DNA of 64,000 nt from an uncultured Nitrosomonas sp. (GCA_949281375.1 CASDLT010000040.1:124001-188000); one strand, 5' to 3'; numbered from the stretch's first letter, positions 28,545-35,880 are shown. Translations and numbers: made by a program. Notes: generated by a model not told the origin, from the sequence alone.

Positions 28545-30026
28545 TCAATTACCCCGAATTATTCGAATACTGTAAGCTCCTATTCCAATTGGCGAATAAT
28601 GCCTGACGCGCGCAAAATATTCACCTGGTGACAGCGGGCGGCGAATGCGGGCATTGAAGGAATCACCCCCATCGTCGTCGCTGCCAATTTCCGGAATCTG
28701 GCTGTTCGGGCCGTGCAAGCTCATGACCGTATCGGTTGCTCCACTGGTTTCGATCGTGTACGTATCCTCAGCGGTGACGGTAAACCGGTAGACGTCGCTT
28801 TCATTGGCTGCAGAAAGAGTCGCATTGATACTCACGCCATCAAGGGTTAGTTCAGGGATCGGATTGGGATTTGCGCCGTCCGCGCGAACGGCGATAGCGT
28901 AATTTCCGGTGGCATTCGGACTGAACAGGCGAATGCGCAGATAATACGTTCCTGCGGATAACGTACGCGTGATTTGAGAATTGAAATTTTCGCCAGCGTC
29001 GTCATCTGATGCAACTTCGAGGTTGGCATCGTTCGGGCCGAATAGCGTCATGAATGTATCGGATGGGCCGGCTGTAGCCATCGTATGCGCTCCGAATGCC
29101 GGAACATCGAACCGGAAAACATCGACTTCGCCCGCTGTGGCGATATCTGCTTGGGTCGGGGCGGCACCAACGATCAGCACGGTGGGCTGAGGTTGCGGTT
29201 GAGGTGTTGCGTCATCGTATACAATCCCCAAGGCGACGCTATCGAGCACATCGATTGGTCGCGAACCGACTGGCCCTGATGGCGTATTATTCATGAGATC
29301 GGTCAAATTTTGTCCAAACGGACCGCCGGTGGCAGGTAAATAGCCTTGAGTCGGGAATCGCAGTTGCCATTCATGCCAGATCTTATCCACCATGCTGTGA
29401 TGCATGAAGAATACCGGATCATTCGGAGAGGTCATCGGCAACATCGAACCGCCGACCCAGACATGGCCTCGATTGTGCAGATTGGGTCCGGTCCAGCCTT
29501 CCACTTGATTGCGGAAACTGGGATTACTGTTCATATCCCAGGGTGATCGGTCATACGGTGTGACCGCGATGACTTGATTGATTTCCGTTTGTGTAGGCAA
29601 GTTTGAGAAGCCGTTTTGCCCGAACTCGCGCATCAGAGGCCCTGACGAGACTCCACTAGCATTGATGATGCTCCATTGGCCGGCGCGGAATGGCCCGGTG
29701 CGAACGACTCCACTTGCATCACCATTGCCGCCCAGCAGATCATCATTCCACATCGAGGCAGTGCTTCCGCCGGATGGCCAATTCCAATAGGGTATGCCGA
29801 GATTCGGATTGCCTGAAACGCGCTGCAGCTCACGTTCCAGGTCGAAAATAAAGCGGCGGTGCCAGGGCAAAAAAGCCGGGCAGCGGTGAATGGCGTTCAT
29901 GATGGCATTTGCGTGCCTGAGAACGAATTGGTCATAGACGCCTTCGGCCTTCAAGGCGAGAATGGCGGCAACGAATTCAGCCCGTTCAGCAGCGGTCAAG
30001 GTATTTGCGTCTTTACGGATAGCCAT
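28545..30026 (-). CDS. Tyrosinase with two C-terminal PPC-type beta domains
   Basis: Type 3 copper oxidase expected to hydroxylate phenols and oxidise catechols with O2. 493 residues. CuA ligands are His38, His47 and His56 (RHANA, AIHRC, PWHRR); CuB ligands His184, His188 and His210 (NLHNRGH, FMHHSMVDKIW). After about residue 280 there are two tandem beta domains of the bacterial pre-peptidase C-terminal type, each ending in a Y(Y/F)xR-type strand (GTYYLRIR, GEYFARVR). No signal peptide is visible, which is odd because PPC domains normally occur in exported proteins. A 71-aa gene lies 30 bp upstream. Confidence 0.9.
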   Translation of the reverse strand: MAIRKDANTLTAAERAEFVAAILALKAEGVYDQFVLRHANAIMNAIHRCPAFLPWHRRFIFDLERELQRVSGNPNLGIPYWNWPSGGSTASMWNDDLLGGNGDASGVVRTGPFRAGQWSIINASGVSSGPLMREFGQNGFSNLPTQTEINQVIAVTPYDRSPWDMNSNPSFRNQVEGWTGPNLHNRGHVWVGGSMLPMTSPNDPVFFMHHSMVDKIWHEWQLRFPTQGYLPATGGPFGQNLTDLMNNTPSGPVGSRPIDVLDSVALGIVYDDATPQPQPQPTVLIVGAAPTQADIATAGEVDVFRFDVPAFGAHTMATAGPSDTFMTLFGPNDANLEVASDDDAGENFNSQITRTLSAGTYYLRIRLFSPNATGNYAIAVRADGANPNPIPELTLDGVSINATLSAANESDVYRFTVTAEDTYTIETSGATDTVMSLHGPNSQIPEIGSDDDGGDSFNARIRRPLSPGEYFARVRHYSPIGIGAYSIRIIRGN

Positions 30027-30056: not shown

Positions 30057-30272
30057 TTATTCATCGATATGCGAAAATTCGACGGTGTGCTTGGCGATTG
30101 CTCGCGCCAGCTCGAGTAACGAGTCATACAAGGTATAAGGGAGGTATTTCGAGGAATATTTATCTTTTATCGGATCATACTGATAGTCGATTTCCTTGCC
30201 ATTGATGGTCAGACCGGTATTATCCTTGATCGTAATTGTGCAACCTGCGAAGGTTTCGGTATGTTGTGCCAT
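30057..30272 (-). CDS. 71-aa protein upstream of tyrosinase, candidate partner
   Basis: A small acidic protein with a beta-rich N-terminal half (TITIKDNTGLTINGKEIDYQYD) and a helical C-terminal half (YTLYDSLLELARAIAKHTVEF). GAGGAGC precedes the ATG. It lies 30 bp before the tyrosinase gene on the same strand. Not recognised as MelC1; position and size suggest a copper-loading or caddie-like helper (inference only). Confidence 0.7.
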   Translation of the reverse strand: MAQHTETFAGCTITIKDNTGLTINGKEIDYQYDPIKDKYSSKYLPYTLYDSLLELARAIAKHTVEFSHIDE

Positions 30273-30381: not shown

Positions 30382-30819
30382 TTACTCATCGATTTCACAC
30401 TGCAGTTCTGCAGAAGTGATCTTTTCTGCATGACGTCCTTGCCCGCGAATCACCGCTGCAATGTCTATCCAATAGCCATTCAGCGTAGCGTTATCGAGAT
30501 TTGCGATCCCCAGTGTGCGCGGGAAATCTACGGTCACATTTTCTGTTCCTGATGCCTCGAGCGTGAGCAGCTCGATGCGAAGGGTTTTGCCAATATGAAA
30601 TGCTCTGAACCGTCCAGAATGAGTAACTTGTTCGGCCGCGAAACAGCTAAGATACTGGGCTTGCAGCCTGAATGTACCTTGTTTGGCTACAGTCAGTAGT
30701 CCCGACTGCAGCGTAGGCAGTGCCGAGCATTTGTCTGCTTCCACTGCTCGTATCTTGCATGTCAAGTTCTTCAAATCACCAGCCGGCTGCGCAAAGACGG
30801 CAGAATGCGTGACTGCCAT
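30382..30819 (-). CDS. Secreted protein of unknown function, 5' end altered by a MITE
   Basis: The mature part (from about AQPAGDLKNLTC) is beta-rich with three cysteines and no recognised domain. The only ATG near the expected start (30819) leaves about 10 residues before the Ala-Gln cleavage site, too short for a signal peptide. A MITE-like repeat begins at 30835, 16 bp upstream; its end is in frame and would encode the missing basic/hydrophobic portion (FPKLISISLS). So either translation now starts inside or beyond the repeat, or the gene lost its signal. The frame is open back to 31089. Confidence 0.55.
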   Translation of the reverse strand: MAVTHSAVFAQPAGDLKNLTCKIRAVEADKCSALPTLQSGLLTVAKQGTFRLQAQYLSCFAAEQVTHSGRFRAFHIGKTLRIELLTLEASGTENVTVDFPRTLGIANLDNATLNGYWIDIAAVIRGQGRHAEKITSAELQCEIDE

Positions 30820-30834
30820 TGTCACAATGATTGA

Positions 30835-30986
30835 TAGGGAAATGCTGATTAATTTGGGGAACGAGATTAAGCGCCAGCCGCACGGAACGCAGCAACCGAG
30901 ACCTATCAAAACATGATAGGTGAGGGAGCAAGTACTGCGCAACGAAGCGATTTGCTCGTGCAGCGAACTAGTCAGCCTTTCCTTAG
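30835..30986 (+). repeat. MITE-like dispersed repeat, copy B
   Basis: About 152 bp. Left end TAGGGAAATGCTGATTAATT, internal GGAACGCAGCAACCGAGACC and CGAAGCGATTTGCTCGTGC, right end AGTCAGCCTTTCCTTAG. Shares order and most bases with copy A. It lies between two genes of the copper block and fuses in frame with the 5' end of the 30382 gene. Confidence 0.8.
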
Positions 30987-31098
30987 AAGCAAAATGCATG
31001 AAGTCATTATGCATTCCTGCATAACCGTGCAAAACCAATGATTCAGAAATTGTCAGAAACATGACCTGTTCAGAGCAAGCTGGGTGCATGTTATGTCA

Positions 31099-31872
31099 TC
31101 ATTTCACGCACATGCCAGCACAGTCCGCGCCCTGTTTTGCAGGATCGCAATCATCAGCGGGATCATCGACGCATTTCATGCCGTCTGGGCAGGGAAAACC
31201 GGCAATGCCGCCACACATTTGCTTAGGTTTCTCGCTCTGGTATGCGGAACTACCCTTCGGCGGGTAATCGATGCGTTTTCCTTCGCCAGCTTTGGAATGT
31301 TCCGCTGATCCGATACTGACGGTTTCTTGCAACTTGTGTGGCTGAACGGTCTGCACATCGATCGACTCGACATCCCCATCGGTATGCCGCGCGGTATATA
31401 TGCTGACGACATCCAACGGCACCGGACTTTTCACGACCAGGAAGCCTTCCAGGAATGCGAAATCGACACATACCCCGTTAATCGGACAAAAGTAACCTGC
31501 GATGTCGAAACAGCTCACGCCGACCGCCCCATCAGGCTGAAGGACGGCGCTTTTGAAAGGAGTGACATCGAAGGGGCCGGGGTCGGCGCCAAACTGGGTC
31601 GCCAGCGCTACTTTGGCTGCAACTGTGATTTTCTTGTTGGTTGGGTTATGGATATTAACGAGGGTACGGTAGATGCCTCGCGCCAATGTGCCATCCTGAT
31701 GCGGCAGCAATAGCGAACAAGCGACTTTGGCCGCATATTGATACTCGGTCTTTACAGTTTCTGCATATTTGGCCGATTCTGCCTGAACAATGCGTGGCAA
31801 GCCAATCAAACCGAATGCGCCACAGAGTCCGAGCAGTAAAGAACAAGCATTTATTGCGTTGAGTTGTTTCAT
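31099..31872 (-). CDS. Secreted protein with C-terminal Cys-rich module
   Basis: 257 residues: signal peptide (MKQLNAINACSLLLGLCGA...VQA), a beta domain of about 160 residues containing paired Cys (SCFDIAGYFCPINGVC), a linker, and a final module with eight-cysteine-like spacing: CGGIAGFPCPDGMKC, DDP, CDP, GADC, GMC. The same module ends the 35229 lipoprotein. Start at 31872 chosen for spacing from GGGAG. It lies 154 bp after the copper oxidase fusion gene, same strand. Function unknown; modules of this kind are extracellular and disulfide-rich. Confidence 0.75.
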   Translation of the reverse strand: MKQLNAINACSLLLGLCGAFGLIGLPRIVQAESAKYAETVKTEYQYAAKVACSLLLPHQDGTLARGIYRTLVNIHNPTNKKITVAAKVALATQFGADPGPFDVTPFKSAVLQPDGAVGVSCFDIAGYFCPINGVCVDFAFLEGFLVVKSPVPLDVVSIYTARHTDGDVESIDVQTVQPHKLQETVSIGSAEHSKAGEGKRIDYPPKGSSAYQSEKPKQMCGGIAGFPCPDGMKCVDDPADDCDPAKQGADCAGMCVK

Positions 31873-32026
31873 AATCATCATCTCCCTGGTTGAATGCGCT
31901 CGATCGAGCAACTTTTTGTAATACCGGTCAGCTTGTCACAGAAAAATTTATTCCGAAAAATCGTCGTTTCTGTTTCACGGCAATGCGTTTGATTTGCTGT
32001 GGAAGTTGACTAGCCCTTATTTCCTA

Positions 32027-35000
32027 TCAAGATATCGACACAAAGCGCGCCACTGACGGCGCACCTTGGTCATTGATCACGAACAGCATGTAATAGCCCG
32101 GCGGTGCGATATTCCCATGCGCGGGTGCTGCCGTTTCCAGCGTTGAAACAGTGCGCGAGCGGATCGGCAATTTGATGTAACGCTGTCCGGCATCGGTATG
32201 ATGTGTGACTGCAATTGGCGCGAGCAATGCGATTGCGGCGATATCCATTGCCTCCGGTGTTTCAATGACAAAAAGATTTCCATATGAAACAGCAGGCGGT
32301 GCATTGACGATGACTGGACGTGTTCCGAGACTCAGATAGCCTGGAGAATAAAGCTCCATCGAATGCTGGTCGGGATCCGCCGTTCCCGGCGCTACGCCGC
32401 CGGCTGACACAATTTTGCCATCCGGCAGCAAGACGCATACCGAATGGTATTGGCGCGGAAAATTCAATGGTGCGCCTACCGTCCAGGCATTGGTTGCCGG
32501 ATCATAGATTTCTGTTTCCAGCACTGGTGTCGGAGACCATTTCTGGCCATTACTATGGCCGCCAATGATGAGTATCCTGCCGGTCGGAAGTACCACGGCG
32601 TTGACATTGGTGCGGCCTGTAGTCATGTCGGCTATGCGCGTCCATGTCGAGCCTGCGATGCCGCCATTGAATTCGATCATCTCCGCCGTCGCATTATTGC
32701 GAGCCGTTGCTGTACCGGATACACCGCCACCGAATACAAATAGACGGCTATTGACTGGGCTGACGGTGGCGTCAATCATCAGCAGGCTCATACCTTCCTG
32801 CCGATCGTAAAACTGTTGCTGACCGTAATCAGTCCATACGCCCGCATTAGGTCCCGTCAGCGTCAAATAAGCGGTCTGCGTTCCGGTTGCCGCAGCCCAA
32901 CCGGCGCGGGTATAGAAGATTTCGCCAGAAGGCAGCAGATGCATGCCCGGATAGAGTTCATCGAATGATCGGTTTGCGCCTGTGACAGGTGCCCACCCAC
33001 CACCACCGAATACTTCGACTTCTGCCGCGACAGGATGTCCGCCCGAAAATGCGAGAATCTGCCCATCGCTCAGGCGCACGGCGGTCGGATACCAGCGGGC
33101 ATGAGTCATGTTGGCGCTTGGTGCAAACGTACCACTGTCGGGATGGGTGGCATTGGGGGTGAAAATAAAGCAACGGTTATTGGTATGCCCGGCGCCATTG
33201 GTGTCACCACCGATGATAAGCAAGCGACCGTCCGGCAGGAAAGTATGTCCACAACAGAAAAAATCTTCCGGCAAAGTGATGACGCCAGGCATGATCTGCT
33301 GGGCTGCGGGATCCCAGACACAGGCTTCGAGCGGATAATTTCTTTCCGCAGCACCGGAAAATAGCAATACATGACCGCTGTTCAATAATGCGCCATGAAC
33401 CACAAAAATCGGTGAAGGTTCAAGCAGTACCCAGTGATCCTTGCCATCTCCACCGCAGGGATGGTGCTCGACTTCGGGGCATTCATGCACGCGCAGAGTG
33501 GGCATCTGGTAACAGATTCGCTCAAGTTCATCATCGCTCAGCTGAACTTCCTGCAACGACCGAAGGATGGCCGCCATTCCTTCCATCATATGCATTTCCA
33601 CGTGGCAGTGGATCAGGAAATCAGCCTGCAGGCGATATTTCTTGCGTTTTTTTGAATATTTATTGTCGTGATCCGAACTGTCCGAAGGCGTATCGTGCTC
33701 ATGGTCATGAGGAGAAAGGTGAGAATCAGGCATGGCTCCATTCGCATCCTCATGCTCATGCCTGGATTCGCTTCTGGTGAGGGAATGACTATCTGACTCA
33801 TGTTCGTGGGGATAAACGTCTCCACTGTCATTTTCCGACCCGGAGGATAACGGAGGGTGTGCGCCGGCATGATTTTCATGTGGGTCGCATCCGCAATCCA
33901 GCGGCAATGGCTGAAGAATGACGGGCGGTACGATAGTATCGGCGACAAACGACTCGGCCGGACCGAGTGAGCGTGTATCGATCCATTCATTCCCCCAACG
34001 CCAGCGTTGTCCATGCAGATGAAAATTGTGCCACACCATGCTCATGTCCAGGTTGAATACATACCAGCGCACGCGCGTTCCGCTTTTTGCCACGATGGTT
34101 GGCGTGGTGCCGACGAACGTGCGGCCATTGATCGCAAACGATTCCAAACCTGCGCCGCTGCGCTCGGTCACGGTATGAGGTTGATTGCCCGCATGCTTCC
34201 AGGTGACGACCGCGCCGACGCCGACCGTGATGTCATCGAGTTCGAATCGTGCTGGTGTATCCAGAATGTTGATCGTAGTGGATAAAAAACCTGTGGTCGT
34301 GACGCGAATGCGTCCTTGCATCGGATGAAAGCGACAATAATAATCAAATGTCCCTTCCTGATTGAAGGTATGGGTGAACGCACCGCCGGCATTCAGCGTA
34401 CCGCTGTCGAACAGTGCATTATCGACATGTGCAGTTAGGCGATGAAAAAAAATCGGCACTTCCAGGTCTGTTTCCTCGCACCCGGGATCACGCACAATGA
34501 TGCCGCCAAACAACCCGCGCTTGATGGCTTCCTCGATGTGCATGTGATGGTCGTGGAAAGGCCAGGCGCCAATGGCATCCTGCTTGACATCAAATACGTA
34601 GCACCATTGTTCGCCCGGACAGATCGCATCGCTGCGGTTAGATCCCTCGTGGGCTTGAACGCCGAACGGCCAGGAACCATCCGAGTCGATGCCATAATGC
34701 AGACCATGTACATGAAGGCTGTGCGGCTTGTTGTCGCCATTAAGTACATGAACATACAGTCTTTCTCCAGGTTGTGTATAGATGACGGTACCGGGAATTC
34801 GGCGTTCGATGCGGGGTTCATTGATATCCGCAGTGATCAGTGGCGCGTCGTTCAGCATGGTATACGCGGCATCTTGATATTCACGGTACACCAGCGCATT
34901 TAGAGAGCGACGGTCAACTTCCGTTTCGGATATGGTTGCGTCTGCATGATCCATGTTTCTCATGCAGTCAAGGCGATGTTTGTGGTGCTCCGCGTCATCG

Positions 35001-35062
35001 GGAGCGACGGGACTGTAGTTGGGAATTGTTTCGATTTTGAGGTATATGTGCCTGACGGTCAT
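32027..35062 (-). CDS. Fusion of multicopper oxidase and galactose/glyoxal-oxidase-type copper radical oxidase
   Basis: 1011 residues. Residues 1-510 form a multicopper oxidase with all four copper motifs: HVHGLH (His117, His119), HDHH (His170, His172), HNFHLHG (His345, 348, 350) and HCHVEMHMMEGM (His485, Cys486, His487, His491, Met496). A second blue-copper-like site is at His231, Cys243, His246, Met248. A His/Asp-rich insert spans 390-477. Residues 530-1011 are an AA5-type propeller plus C-terminal beta domain with the radical-copper residues kept: Cys603/604 (FFCCGH), Tyr658 (ARWYP), Tyr872-His873 (RQYHS), His954/955 (VTHHTD). No signal peptide. Start 35062 follows AAGGAG. A chain holding two different copper oxidases is unusual. 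Confidence 0.88.
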   Translation of the reverse strand: MTVRHIYLKIETIPNYSPVAPDDAEHHKHRLDCMRNMDHADATISETEVDRRSLNALVYREYQDAAYTMLNDAPLITADINEPRIERRIPGTVIYTQPGERLYVHVLNGDNKPHSLHVHGLHYGIDSDGSWPFGVQAHEGSNRSDAICPGEQWCYVFDVKQDAIGAWPFHDHHMHIEEAIKRGLFGGIIVRDPGCEETDLEVPIFFHRLTAHVDNALFDSGTLNAGGAFTHTFNQEGTFDYYCRFHPMQGRIRVTTTGFLSTTINILDTPARFELDDITVGVGAVVTWKHAGNQPHTVTERSGAGLESFAINGRTFVGTTPTIVAKSGTRVRWYVFNLDMSMVWHNFHLHGQRWRWGNEWIDTRSLGPAESFVADTIVPPVILQPLPLDCGCDPHENHAGAHPPLSSGSENDSGDVYPHEHESDSHSLTRSESRHEHEDANGAMPDSHLSPHDHEHDTPSDSSDHDNKYSKKRKKYRLQADFLIHCHVEMHMMEGMAAILRSLQEVQLSDDELERICYQMPTLRVHECPEVEHHPCGGDGKDHWVLLEPSPIFVVHGALLNSGHVLLFSGAAERNYPLEACVWDPAAQQIMPGVITLPEDFFCCGHTFLPDGRLLIIGGDTNGAGHTNNRCFIFTPNATHPDSGTFAPSANMTHARWYPTAVRLSDGQILAFSGGHPVAAEVEVFGGGGWAPVTGANRSFDELYPGMHLLPSGEIFYTRAGWAAATGTQTAYLTLTGPNAGVWTDYGQQQFYDRQEGMSLLMIDATVSPVNSRLFVFGGGVSGTATARNNATAEMIEFNGGIAGSTWTRIADMTTGRTNVNAVVLPTGRILIIGGHSNGQKWSPTPVLETEIYDPATNAWTVGAPLNFPRQYHSVCVLLPDGKIVSAGGVAPGTADPDQHSMELYSPGYLSLGTRPVIVNAPPAVSYGNLFVIETPEAMDIAAIALLAPIAVTHHTDAGQRYIKLPIRSRTVSTLETAAPAHGNIAPPGYYMLFVINDQGAPSVARFVSIS

Positions 35063-35228: not shown

Positions 35229-35702
35229 CTAGTATTTGTCTGTGCATATTCCCGGACAATCCGCGCCGCCTTTAGTGGGATCGCAGGTATCGTCGGGATT
35301 GTCGATACAGCTTAGTCCGTCCGGGCATGCCTTGCCGGTAATTCCACCGCAGGCTTGAGGTTCGGCATTTTTGCATTCTCCCAGGTGGTCAATCGATTGC
35401 CCTACAGCGGCAGCTTCACAGGCATTGCCATAGGTTTTTCCGTCACAGCCGCATACCGGCTGGTACTCTTTGGTGCAGACGTCCGGTTTGGATTTGCACT
35501 GCCCTTGAGCATCGGCGATTTTGCATTGCCCAACTCCAAAATCGCAAAATTGTGTGGCCGGGCAGGTTAAACCTTGAATGGTGCCGCAGATCTGAGGTTG
35601 TGGTTGTGGTTGTGGTTGTGGTTGTGGCGGTGTATTTTCCTTGCATCCGATCAGCATGACGCAAATAGAAAAGGCGACTGCTACAGTAAGCAATGTTTTC
35701 AT
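35229..35702 (-). CDS. Lipoprotein with Kazal-type domain and Cys-rich module
   Basis: 157 residues: lipoprotein signal with lipobox LIGC, a PQ dipeptide repeat spacer (about six PQ units), a first Cys cluster (CGTIQGLTCPATQFC), a Kazal-type inhibitor domain (VCGCDGKTYGNACEAAAVG to GEC), and a final module CGGITGKACPDGLSC...CDP...GADC..IC that repeats the end of the 31099 protein. Kazal domains inhibit serine proteases. The start is at the basic/hydrophobic MKTLLTV. Lies 166 bp upstream of the copper oxidase fusion, same strand. Confidence 0.85.
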   Translation of the reverse strand: MKTLLTVAVAFSICVMLIGCKENTPPQPQPQPQPQPQICGTIQGLTCPATQFCDFGVGQCKIADAQGQCKSKPDVCTKEYQPVCGCDGKTYGNACEAAAVGQSIDHLGECKNAEPQACGGITGKACPDGLSCIDNPDDTCDPTKGGADCPGICTDKY

Positions 35703-35880
35703 AAAGTATCCCCTTATAAAGATCAATAGATTGCTGCTGTATTTTTGTTTTTATTGATGAAGGCTGATCAGATGAGCTTTCAGCGCTTCTTTAGCAGCCA
35801 TCGGAGCATAACGTTTTAGCAGTGATTGTTCTGTACGGTAAGTTACATTGTGAGAAGGGGATTAAGGCATCGAGATTCCA

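Follow-up and report, generated by a model that had tools for sequence, protein, structure and literature searches.

The window analysed here is a stretch of 64,000 nucleotides from an uncultured Nitrosomonas sp. (GCA_949281375.1 CASDLT010000040.1:124001-188000), an ammonia oxidizer of the family Nitrosomonadaceae with a genome of 3.04 Mb. On its minus strand, positions 32027-35062 hold a single open frame that runs from an ATG at 35062 to a stop at 32027 with no internal stops and encodes a protein of 1011 residues, in which a multicopper oxidase (MCO, residues ~91-505) and a complete copper radical oxidase module of the AA5 family (residues ~546-1011) form one intact chain. Frame and coordinates are as given in an earlier note on this DNA, made from the sequence alone, which had described two copper oxidases in one polypeptide. 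Searched against Pfam as a frame of 1023 residues, 12 longer than the 1011-residue numbering used here, the protein matches Cu-oxidase_3 (6e-15), Cu-oxidase_2 (6.5e-14), Copper-bind (1e-4), Kelch_6 (3e-18) and GO-like_E_set (3e-22), and scores 35.4 bits with Glyoxal_oxid_N, slightly below the cut-off of 37.5. Its nearest homologue occurs in Nitrosomonas sp. JL21 (87%).

Members of the MCO and AA5 families are mostly exported. A signal peptide was sought in the fusion protein and its homologues; the window protein has none, as had been noticed earlier, and the absence is common to the homologues. An AAGGAG ribosome-binding site precedes ATG 35062 at a spacing of 9 nt and, since it is correctly placed, no signal peptide is concealed upstream of this start. 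That the frame is an assembly artefact or a read-through across two genes is practically excluded: the same contiguous frame, uninterrupted by any stop or assembly join between the halves, is borne by independent genomes, 17 of 125 in the family (some assembled in 1-3 contigs) as well as methanotroph and Anaeromyxobacter assemblies.

Gene cluster around the fusion

The fusion gene belongs to a conserved cluster, all of it on the minus strand in the window. The first gene, upstream of the fusion in Nitrosomonas, encodes a lipoprotein-like exported protein with a Kazal domain (35229-35726; Kazal_1, 5e-8). On the other side of the fusion lie two conserved neighbours, namely p270 (31099-31911), an exported protein for which the Pfam search gave no family, and p235 (30382-31089), which is probably exported and whose true start is likely further in, its relatives having 158-186 residues. 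They are followed by a 71-residue protein without signal peptide (30057-30272) and a MelC2-like tyrosinase with two C-terminal PPC domains (28545-30026). The order Kazal protein, fusion, p270, p235, 71-residue protein and tyrosinase recurs in Nitrosomonas (loci L010, L018, and L020; at L008 the 71-residue frame is not called). The fusion, the tyrosinase and the 71-residue protein lack signal peptides and three neighbouring partners look exported. The Kazal protein and p270 have a Cys-rich tail in common (CGGI-x-G-x2-CPDG-x2-C-x-D-x-P-x-D-x-CDP...GADC-x-G-x-C).

The tyrosinase carries the di-copper central domain (PF00264, 3e-42), with copper-binding His blocks that align to those of the B. megaterium enzyme, and scores 266 bits against the MelC2 equivalog NF047834, short of the cut-off of 450. 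The 71-residue protein is homologous, by profile match, to N. europaea NE1242 (PDB 2JV8), and its predicted model (pLDDT 82) matches the Streptomyces MelC1 caddies with a Z of 10 (66 residues, 2.2 Å; best unrelated match, Z 4.5). With this predicted fold and an adjoining tyrosinase, it is most likely a tyrosinase caddie without export signal. NE1242, an uncharacterized protein from structural genomics that has been represented by a structure only, likely belongs with the tyrosinase caddies of the MelC1 fold as well and so gains a probable function. Adjoining caddie and tyrosinase genes are also the arrangement of the Streptomyces MelC1/MelC2 pair (PDB 1wx2, 6j2u), from which the present one differs in a caddie of 71 residues that lacks an export signal, in the two PPC domains of the tyrosinase and in the clustering of both genes with the fusion.

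The association with tyrosinase extends beyond this gene order. Nitrosospira has another tyrosinase (35-38% identical), encoded on the strand opposite the fusion at a distance of ~1.7 kb and accompanied at two loci (L006, L021) by a caddie-like protein. Tyrosinase genes occur in 17/17 genomes with the fusion and in 55/108 other genomes of the family (Fisher p 4e-5, and 0.004 within the genus, both uncorrected for ancestry), and by the listed coordinates they lie within about 3 kb of the fusion in 8 of the 17. Neither the tyrosinase/caddie cluster nor the permuted cupredoxin and the paralogues described below figured in the earlier note. The core metabolism of ammonia oxidizers already relies on copper enzymes, and the cluster reveals in these bacteria an undescribed copper-oxidase module composed of the MCO-AA5 protein, a tyrosinase and its putative caddie.

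Other features of these neighbourhoods may be mentioned. Tyrosinase and MCO genes are no more than ~3 kb apart on five contigs (G085:C80, G011:C89, G079:C115, G094:C10, and G110:C10), and copper oxidase genes seem to cluster in general in the family. Five Nitrosospira loci (L006, L012, L014, L021, and L065) encode near the fusion a conserved protein of ~245 residues (family c5) without Pfam family, and some Nitrosospira fusion loci hold an HlyD/ABC-2 exporter set.

The two copper oxidase halves

Ligand conservation was examined in a set of 17 homologues (identity 55-89%), two of which end at contig borders: a methanotroph contig lacks the C-terminus and a Crenothrix contig the N-terminus. The MCO half comprises three domains. 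Domain 1 (residues ~91-205; 34448-34792) matches Cu-oxidase_3 and contributes half of the trinuclear copper site (H117, H119, H170, and H172). Domain 2 (residues ~206-312; 34127-34447) is a blue-copper-like cupredoxin and holds a second type-1 copper set (C243/H246/M248 and H296). The last domain (residues ~313-505; 33548-34126) matches Cu-oxidase_2 and provides a type-1 copper site (H345, C486, H491, and M496) together with the rest of the trinuclear site. All four MCO motifs listed in the earlier note are present (H117-x-H119, H170-x-H172, H345-x2-H348-x-H350, and H485-C486-H487-x3-H491-x4-M496), with the ten trinuclear and type-1 His, the Cys and the axial ligand in place and with Cu-oxidase_3 and Cu-oxidase_2 above their cut-offs. 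Neither these ligands nor the second blue-copper-like set, which the note had also pointed out, show any change in the homologues wherever the residue is covered. By sequence, the nearest solved relatives of this half are ceruloplasmin, which has a VYREY-x-D region in common with the fusion, and the two-domain laccases; the fusion differs from them in having one pair of MCO end domains that flank a permuted cupredoxin, and a C-terminal AA5 module.

In domain 2 the halves stand in reversed order, the Cys-His-Met half coming ahead of the half with the first His. A plastocyanin profile matches the natural order at positions 65-98 (29 bits) and, once the halves are swapped, runs unbroken over positions 12-98 (35.4 bits); the same swap raises the Anaeromyxobacter homologue from 34.3 to 36.9 bits. 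Domain 2 is therefore likely a circularly permuted blue-copper domain, the gain in bits being modest.

The last MCO domain also contains a His/Asp/Ser-rich insert (residues 390-477; 33632-33895), around which the halves had been thought to be joined. This part of the earlier interpretation does not hold, in contrast to its account of a natural, conserved MCO/AA5-type fusion with full sets of metal ligands and no signal peptide. The insert lies between MCO motifs 3 and 4, is highly variable in length and sequence among the homologues (few His are left in some of them) and is missing from the paralogous fusions P2 and P3 introduced below, which excludes a role as inter-domain linker; it appears to be a fast-evolving ornament of the P1-type fusion found in the window rather than a joint. 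The actual joint is a conserved, Cys-rich stretch at residues ~506-545 (33428-33547). Ratios of dN/dS are 0.25-0.45 in the insert, 0.04-0.10 in the join (506-545) and mostly 0.03-0.15 in the other regions, although some single regions with few or saturated silent changes scatter and the N-terminus gives 0.2-0.4 in two close pairs. Purifying selection thus acts on the MCO half, the AA5 half and the join between them.

The AA5 module (residues ~546-1011; 32030-33427) consists of a kelch propeller and an early-set domain. The search with profile models suggested earlier for residues 530-1011 retrieved the kelch and GO-like_E_set families, with Glyoxal_oxid_N just under its threshold, and the score with PF09118 is 79 bits (cut-off 25). 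An AlphaFold model of this half matches Streptomyces GlxA with a Z of 41.4 (454 residues, 2.6 Å) and fungal galactose oxidase with a Z of 40.1; structure prediction of the whole fusion, likewise suggested, was informative for the AA5 half, whereas the model of the MCO half is unreliable. The Cys-Tyr-Tyr-His-His set reported for this module is complete, with the Cys and Tyr of the cofactor (C603, Y658), the axial Tyr (Y872), the two His (H873, H954) and in addition the stacking Trp (W657), and all six are unchanged in the 17 homologues where covered.

W657 immediately precedes the linked Tyr, the placing of W288 in GlxA and also of W509 in a Fusarium aldehyde oxidase (PMC13094651), which points to an AA5 half of the glyoxal-oxidase/GlxA kind and not to galactose oxidase proper. 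The fusion scores 218.9 bits against the GlxA equivalog NF052501 (cut-off 800), and so is a relative rather than GlxA itself. Fold, copper and Cys-Tyr residues and the Trp before the Tyr are common to the fusion and GlxA (PDB 4unm), but GlxA has no MCO. Likewise, the galactose and glyoxal oxidases of CAZy AA5 (PDB 1gof, 9n3u) have the propeller, the early-set domain and the full ligand set in common with the fusion; they are fungal, secreted and without MCO, whereas the fusion lacks a signal peptide.

Distribution, paralogues and repeated joining

Full-length fusions of the type found in the window (P1) are carried by 17 of 125 Nitrosomonadaceae genomes. Beyond the family, P1 is present in a Methylococcaceae and an Anaeromyxobacter assembly and, as a C-terminal part cut by the end of its contig, in Crenothrix, a distribution that answers the earlier call to look for the architecture in other genomes. 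It is not widespread: a scan of 398 genomes sampled from the phylum hit the MCO half at E <= 1e-25 only in the genome of the window itself, 369 genomes of the class yielded one further fusion, of P2 type, and a search of plasmids gave no full-length match. Both halves belong to known families by the features tested, and their fusion appears undescribed in the open literature; no paper on an MCO-AA5 protein, let alone the many described proteins that would have made the architecture commonplace, was found in the open-licence literature. An AA5-CE3 protein of Burkholderia pseudomallei (Mazurkewich 2023, as cited in PMC11267884) is comparable in that an AA5 oxidase of a bacterium is likewise linked to a second enzyme domain; as described in the citing paper that domain is an inactive carbohydrate esterase, whereas the partner here is a copper oxidase whose site is intact.

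Two paralogous fusions have the rare MCO half in common with P1. P2 (L049, L056) is present in a genome of the Nitrosospira group (G094) and in one of another family (G288), and the axial Met of its last-domain type-1 site is replaced by Leu. P3 (L050, L051, and L066) is present in three genomes (G022, G079, and G080); its AA5 Cys is replaced by Ser and the fusion is retained. At one P3 locus (L051) a tyrosinase-VWA gene lies upstream. Remnants of the fusion persist in G095 (L062), with stops and gaps, and in G021 (L063), where residues 1-81 and 938-1011 are joined in one piece, and end fragments remain in G083 (C57), G100 (L064), and G104 (L068). The fusion thus appears to have been lost repeatedly within the family, without necessarily taking tyrosinase and partners with it. 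In G021 the complete cluster is kept around a fusion remnant of 150 residues.

In a tree of AA5 modules the P1, P2, and P3 halves are not united in a single clade. P1 stands beside a standalone AA5 of G022, a genome of the genus Nitrosomonas, and P2 beside an FG-GAP-linked AA5 (L034) and a standalone AA5 of Nostoc (L048). In AU tests, on a set that includes long branches, a clade of P1 and P2 was rejected (p 7.8e-5), as was one of P1, P2, and P3 (p 1.6e-7), and one of P1 and P3 was not (0.13). A single fusion event followed by vertical descent is hence rejected for P1 with P2 and for the three together, and, given that the P1 and P2 halves are not one clade, AA5 must have been joined to this MCO, or swapped on it, on more than one occasion. 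The same tree pattern could result from an ancestral fusion whose AA5 was later replaced, or from fission of P2-like fusions. After the standalone AA5 gene nearest P1 (L067:4772-6628, in G022) comes, 215 bp or more further on and in the same orientation, a gene for a standalone laccase-type MCO (span to L067:10244) with all four motifs and a long C-terminal extension; judged from sequence, this pair is the unfused form of the fusion's partnership.

A few further candidates were considered. Two long myxobacterial AA5 frames (L042, L047) were rejected as additional fusions, their N-terminal parts having no recognizable MCO motif and resembling non-coding extensions. A full-length fusion of 74% identity at the end of an IMG/VR contig filed as viral (L070; 2721756095_000004) is probably flanking bacterial DNA. 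The window's own genome has another AA5-like gene (526 aa) and an MCO gene ~4.4 kb apart in the same orientation (G000:C10:22280-28300); two such AA5-like genes (L002, L003) are without the usual Cys and Tyr motifs.

Possible function of the fusion

By family and ligands, the AA5 half would oxidize an aldehyde or alcohol with O2, giving H2O2, and the MCO half would take up single electrons and reduce O2 to water. MCOs are one-electron oxidants driven by O2. Glyoxal oxidases lapse into a non-radical state that calls for a one-electron oxidant, and are revived by ABTS radicals made by peroxidases or by strong inorganic oxidants; some AA5 oxidases are active without added activator (PMC10928124). 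It is from the pairing of this requirement with an oxidant of that kind that we propose, tentatively and with somewhat less than even confidence, that the fusion is a single two-site copper enzyme in which the MCO most likely re-oxidizes, and so activates, the AA5 radical site. Whenever the AA5 site is in its non-radical state, the MCO half would draw one electron from it, directly or by means of a mediator, either phenolic or a metal, perhaps by way of the extra blue copper, and would so bring back the Cu(II)-tyrosyl radical, O2 being the sole oxidant. Together with the tyrosinase and the caddie, the fusion may constitute a copper-oxidase module for which phenolic or carbonyl compounds or polymers would be the substrates.

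Several results support re-oxidation of AA5 by the MCO: the repeated joining of the two and their unfused neighbouring gene pair, the complete and invariant ligand sets with purifying selection on both halves and the join, the match of the AA5 fold to GlxA (Z 41) with the Trp before the linked Tyr, and the tyrosinase in 17/17 fusion genomes, adjacent in Nitrosomonas and Nitrosospira. Against it count the AA5 oxidases that are active without activator, the lack of a signal peptide and the P3 paralogues, whose Ser in place of the AA5 Cys implies that the fusion can serve without the Cys-Tyr cofactor. A fuller version, in which a self-activating copper radical oxidase uses the O2-driven MCO to make and keep its tyrosyl radical, with the permuted cupredoxin's blue copper as relay, was assembled more than once and is coupled to tyrosinase and caddie in ammonia oxidizers, is a possible but rather unlikely combination. 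Copper radical oxidases inactivate and in use require added peroxidases or oxidants, so that a fusion with an O2-using oxidase would, if the proposal is true, directly model self-activation; the hypothesis is unusually testable, on one purified protein.

The main rival holds that the chain carries two independent catalysts in equal amounts and without electron exchange, the MCO (with the tyrosinase) acting on the phenols and the AA5 half on the alcohols or aldehydes of one and the same compound or polymer. MCO, AA5, and tyrosinase do all occur together here, tyrosinase, MCO, and glyoxal oxidase co-occur in the Mn(II)-oxidizing secretome of a fungus (PMC7902709), and AA5 modules in Nitrosomonadaceae are fused to many other domains (Ig, CARDB, and FG-GAP); co-location alone, however, leaves the repeated choice of the rare MCO half unexplained, and this reading is a serious possibility yet an unlikely one.

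Copper loading or detoxification, whereby the MCO with its His-rich insert would bind or oxidize Cu(I) and hand Cu(II) to the AA5 half, and perhaps to the tyrosinase, in a copper-poor compartment, would suit the insert, the lack of a signal peptide and the neighbouring caddie with its predicted fold of a tyrosinase copper chaperone. It is improbable in view of the fast evolution of the insert, its few His in some relatives and its absence from P2 and P3. Less probable again is a chain with a single working catalyst, whose other half has no activity and acts as scaffold or binding module, as AA5 might if its propeller bound glycans: the Ser for Cys replacement in P3 would fit such a role, but P1 shows low dN/dS and no change in any catalytic residue of either half.
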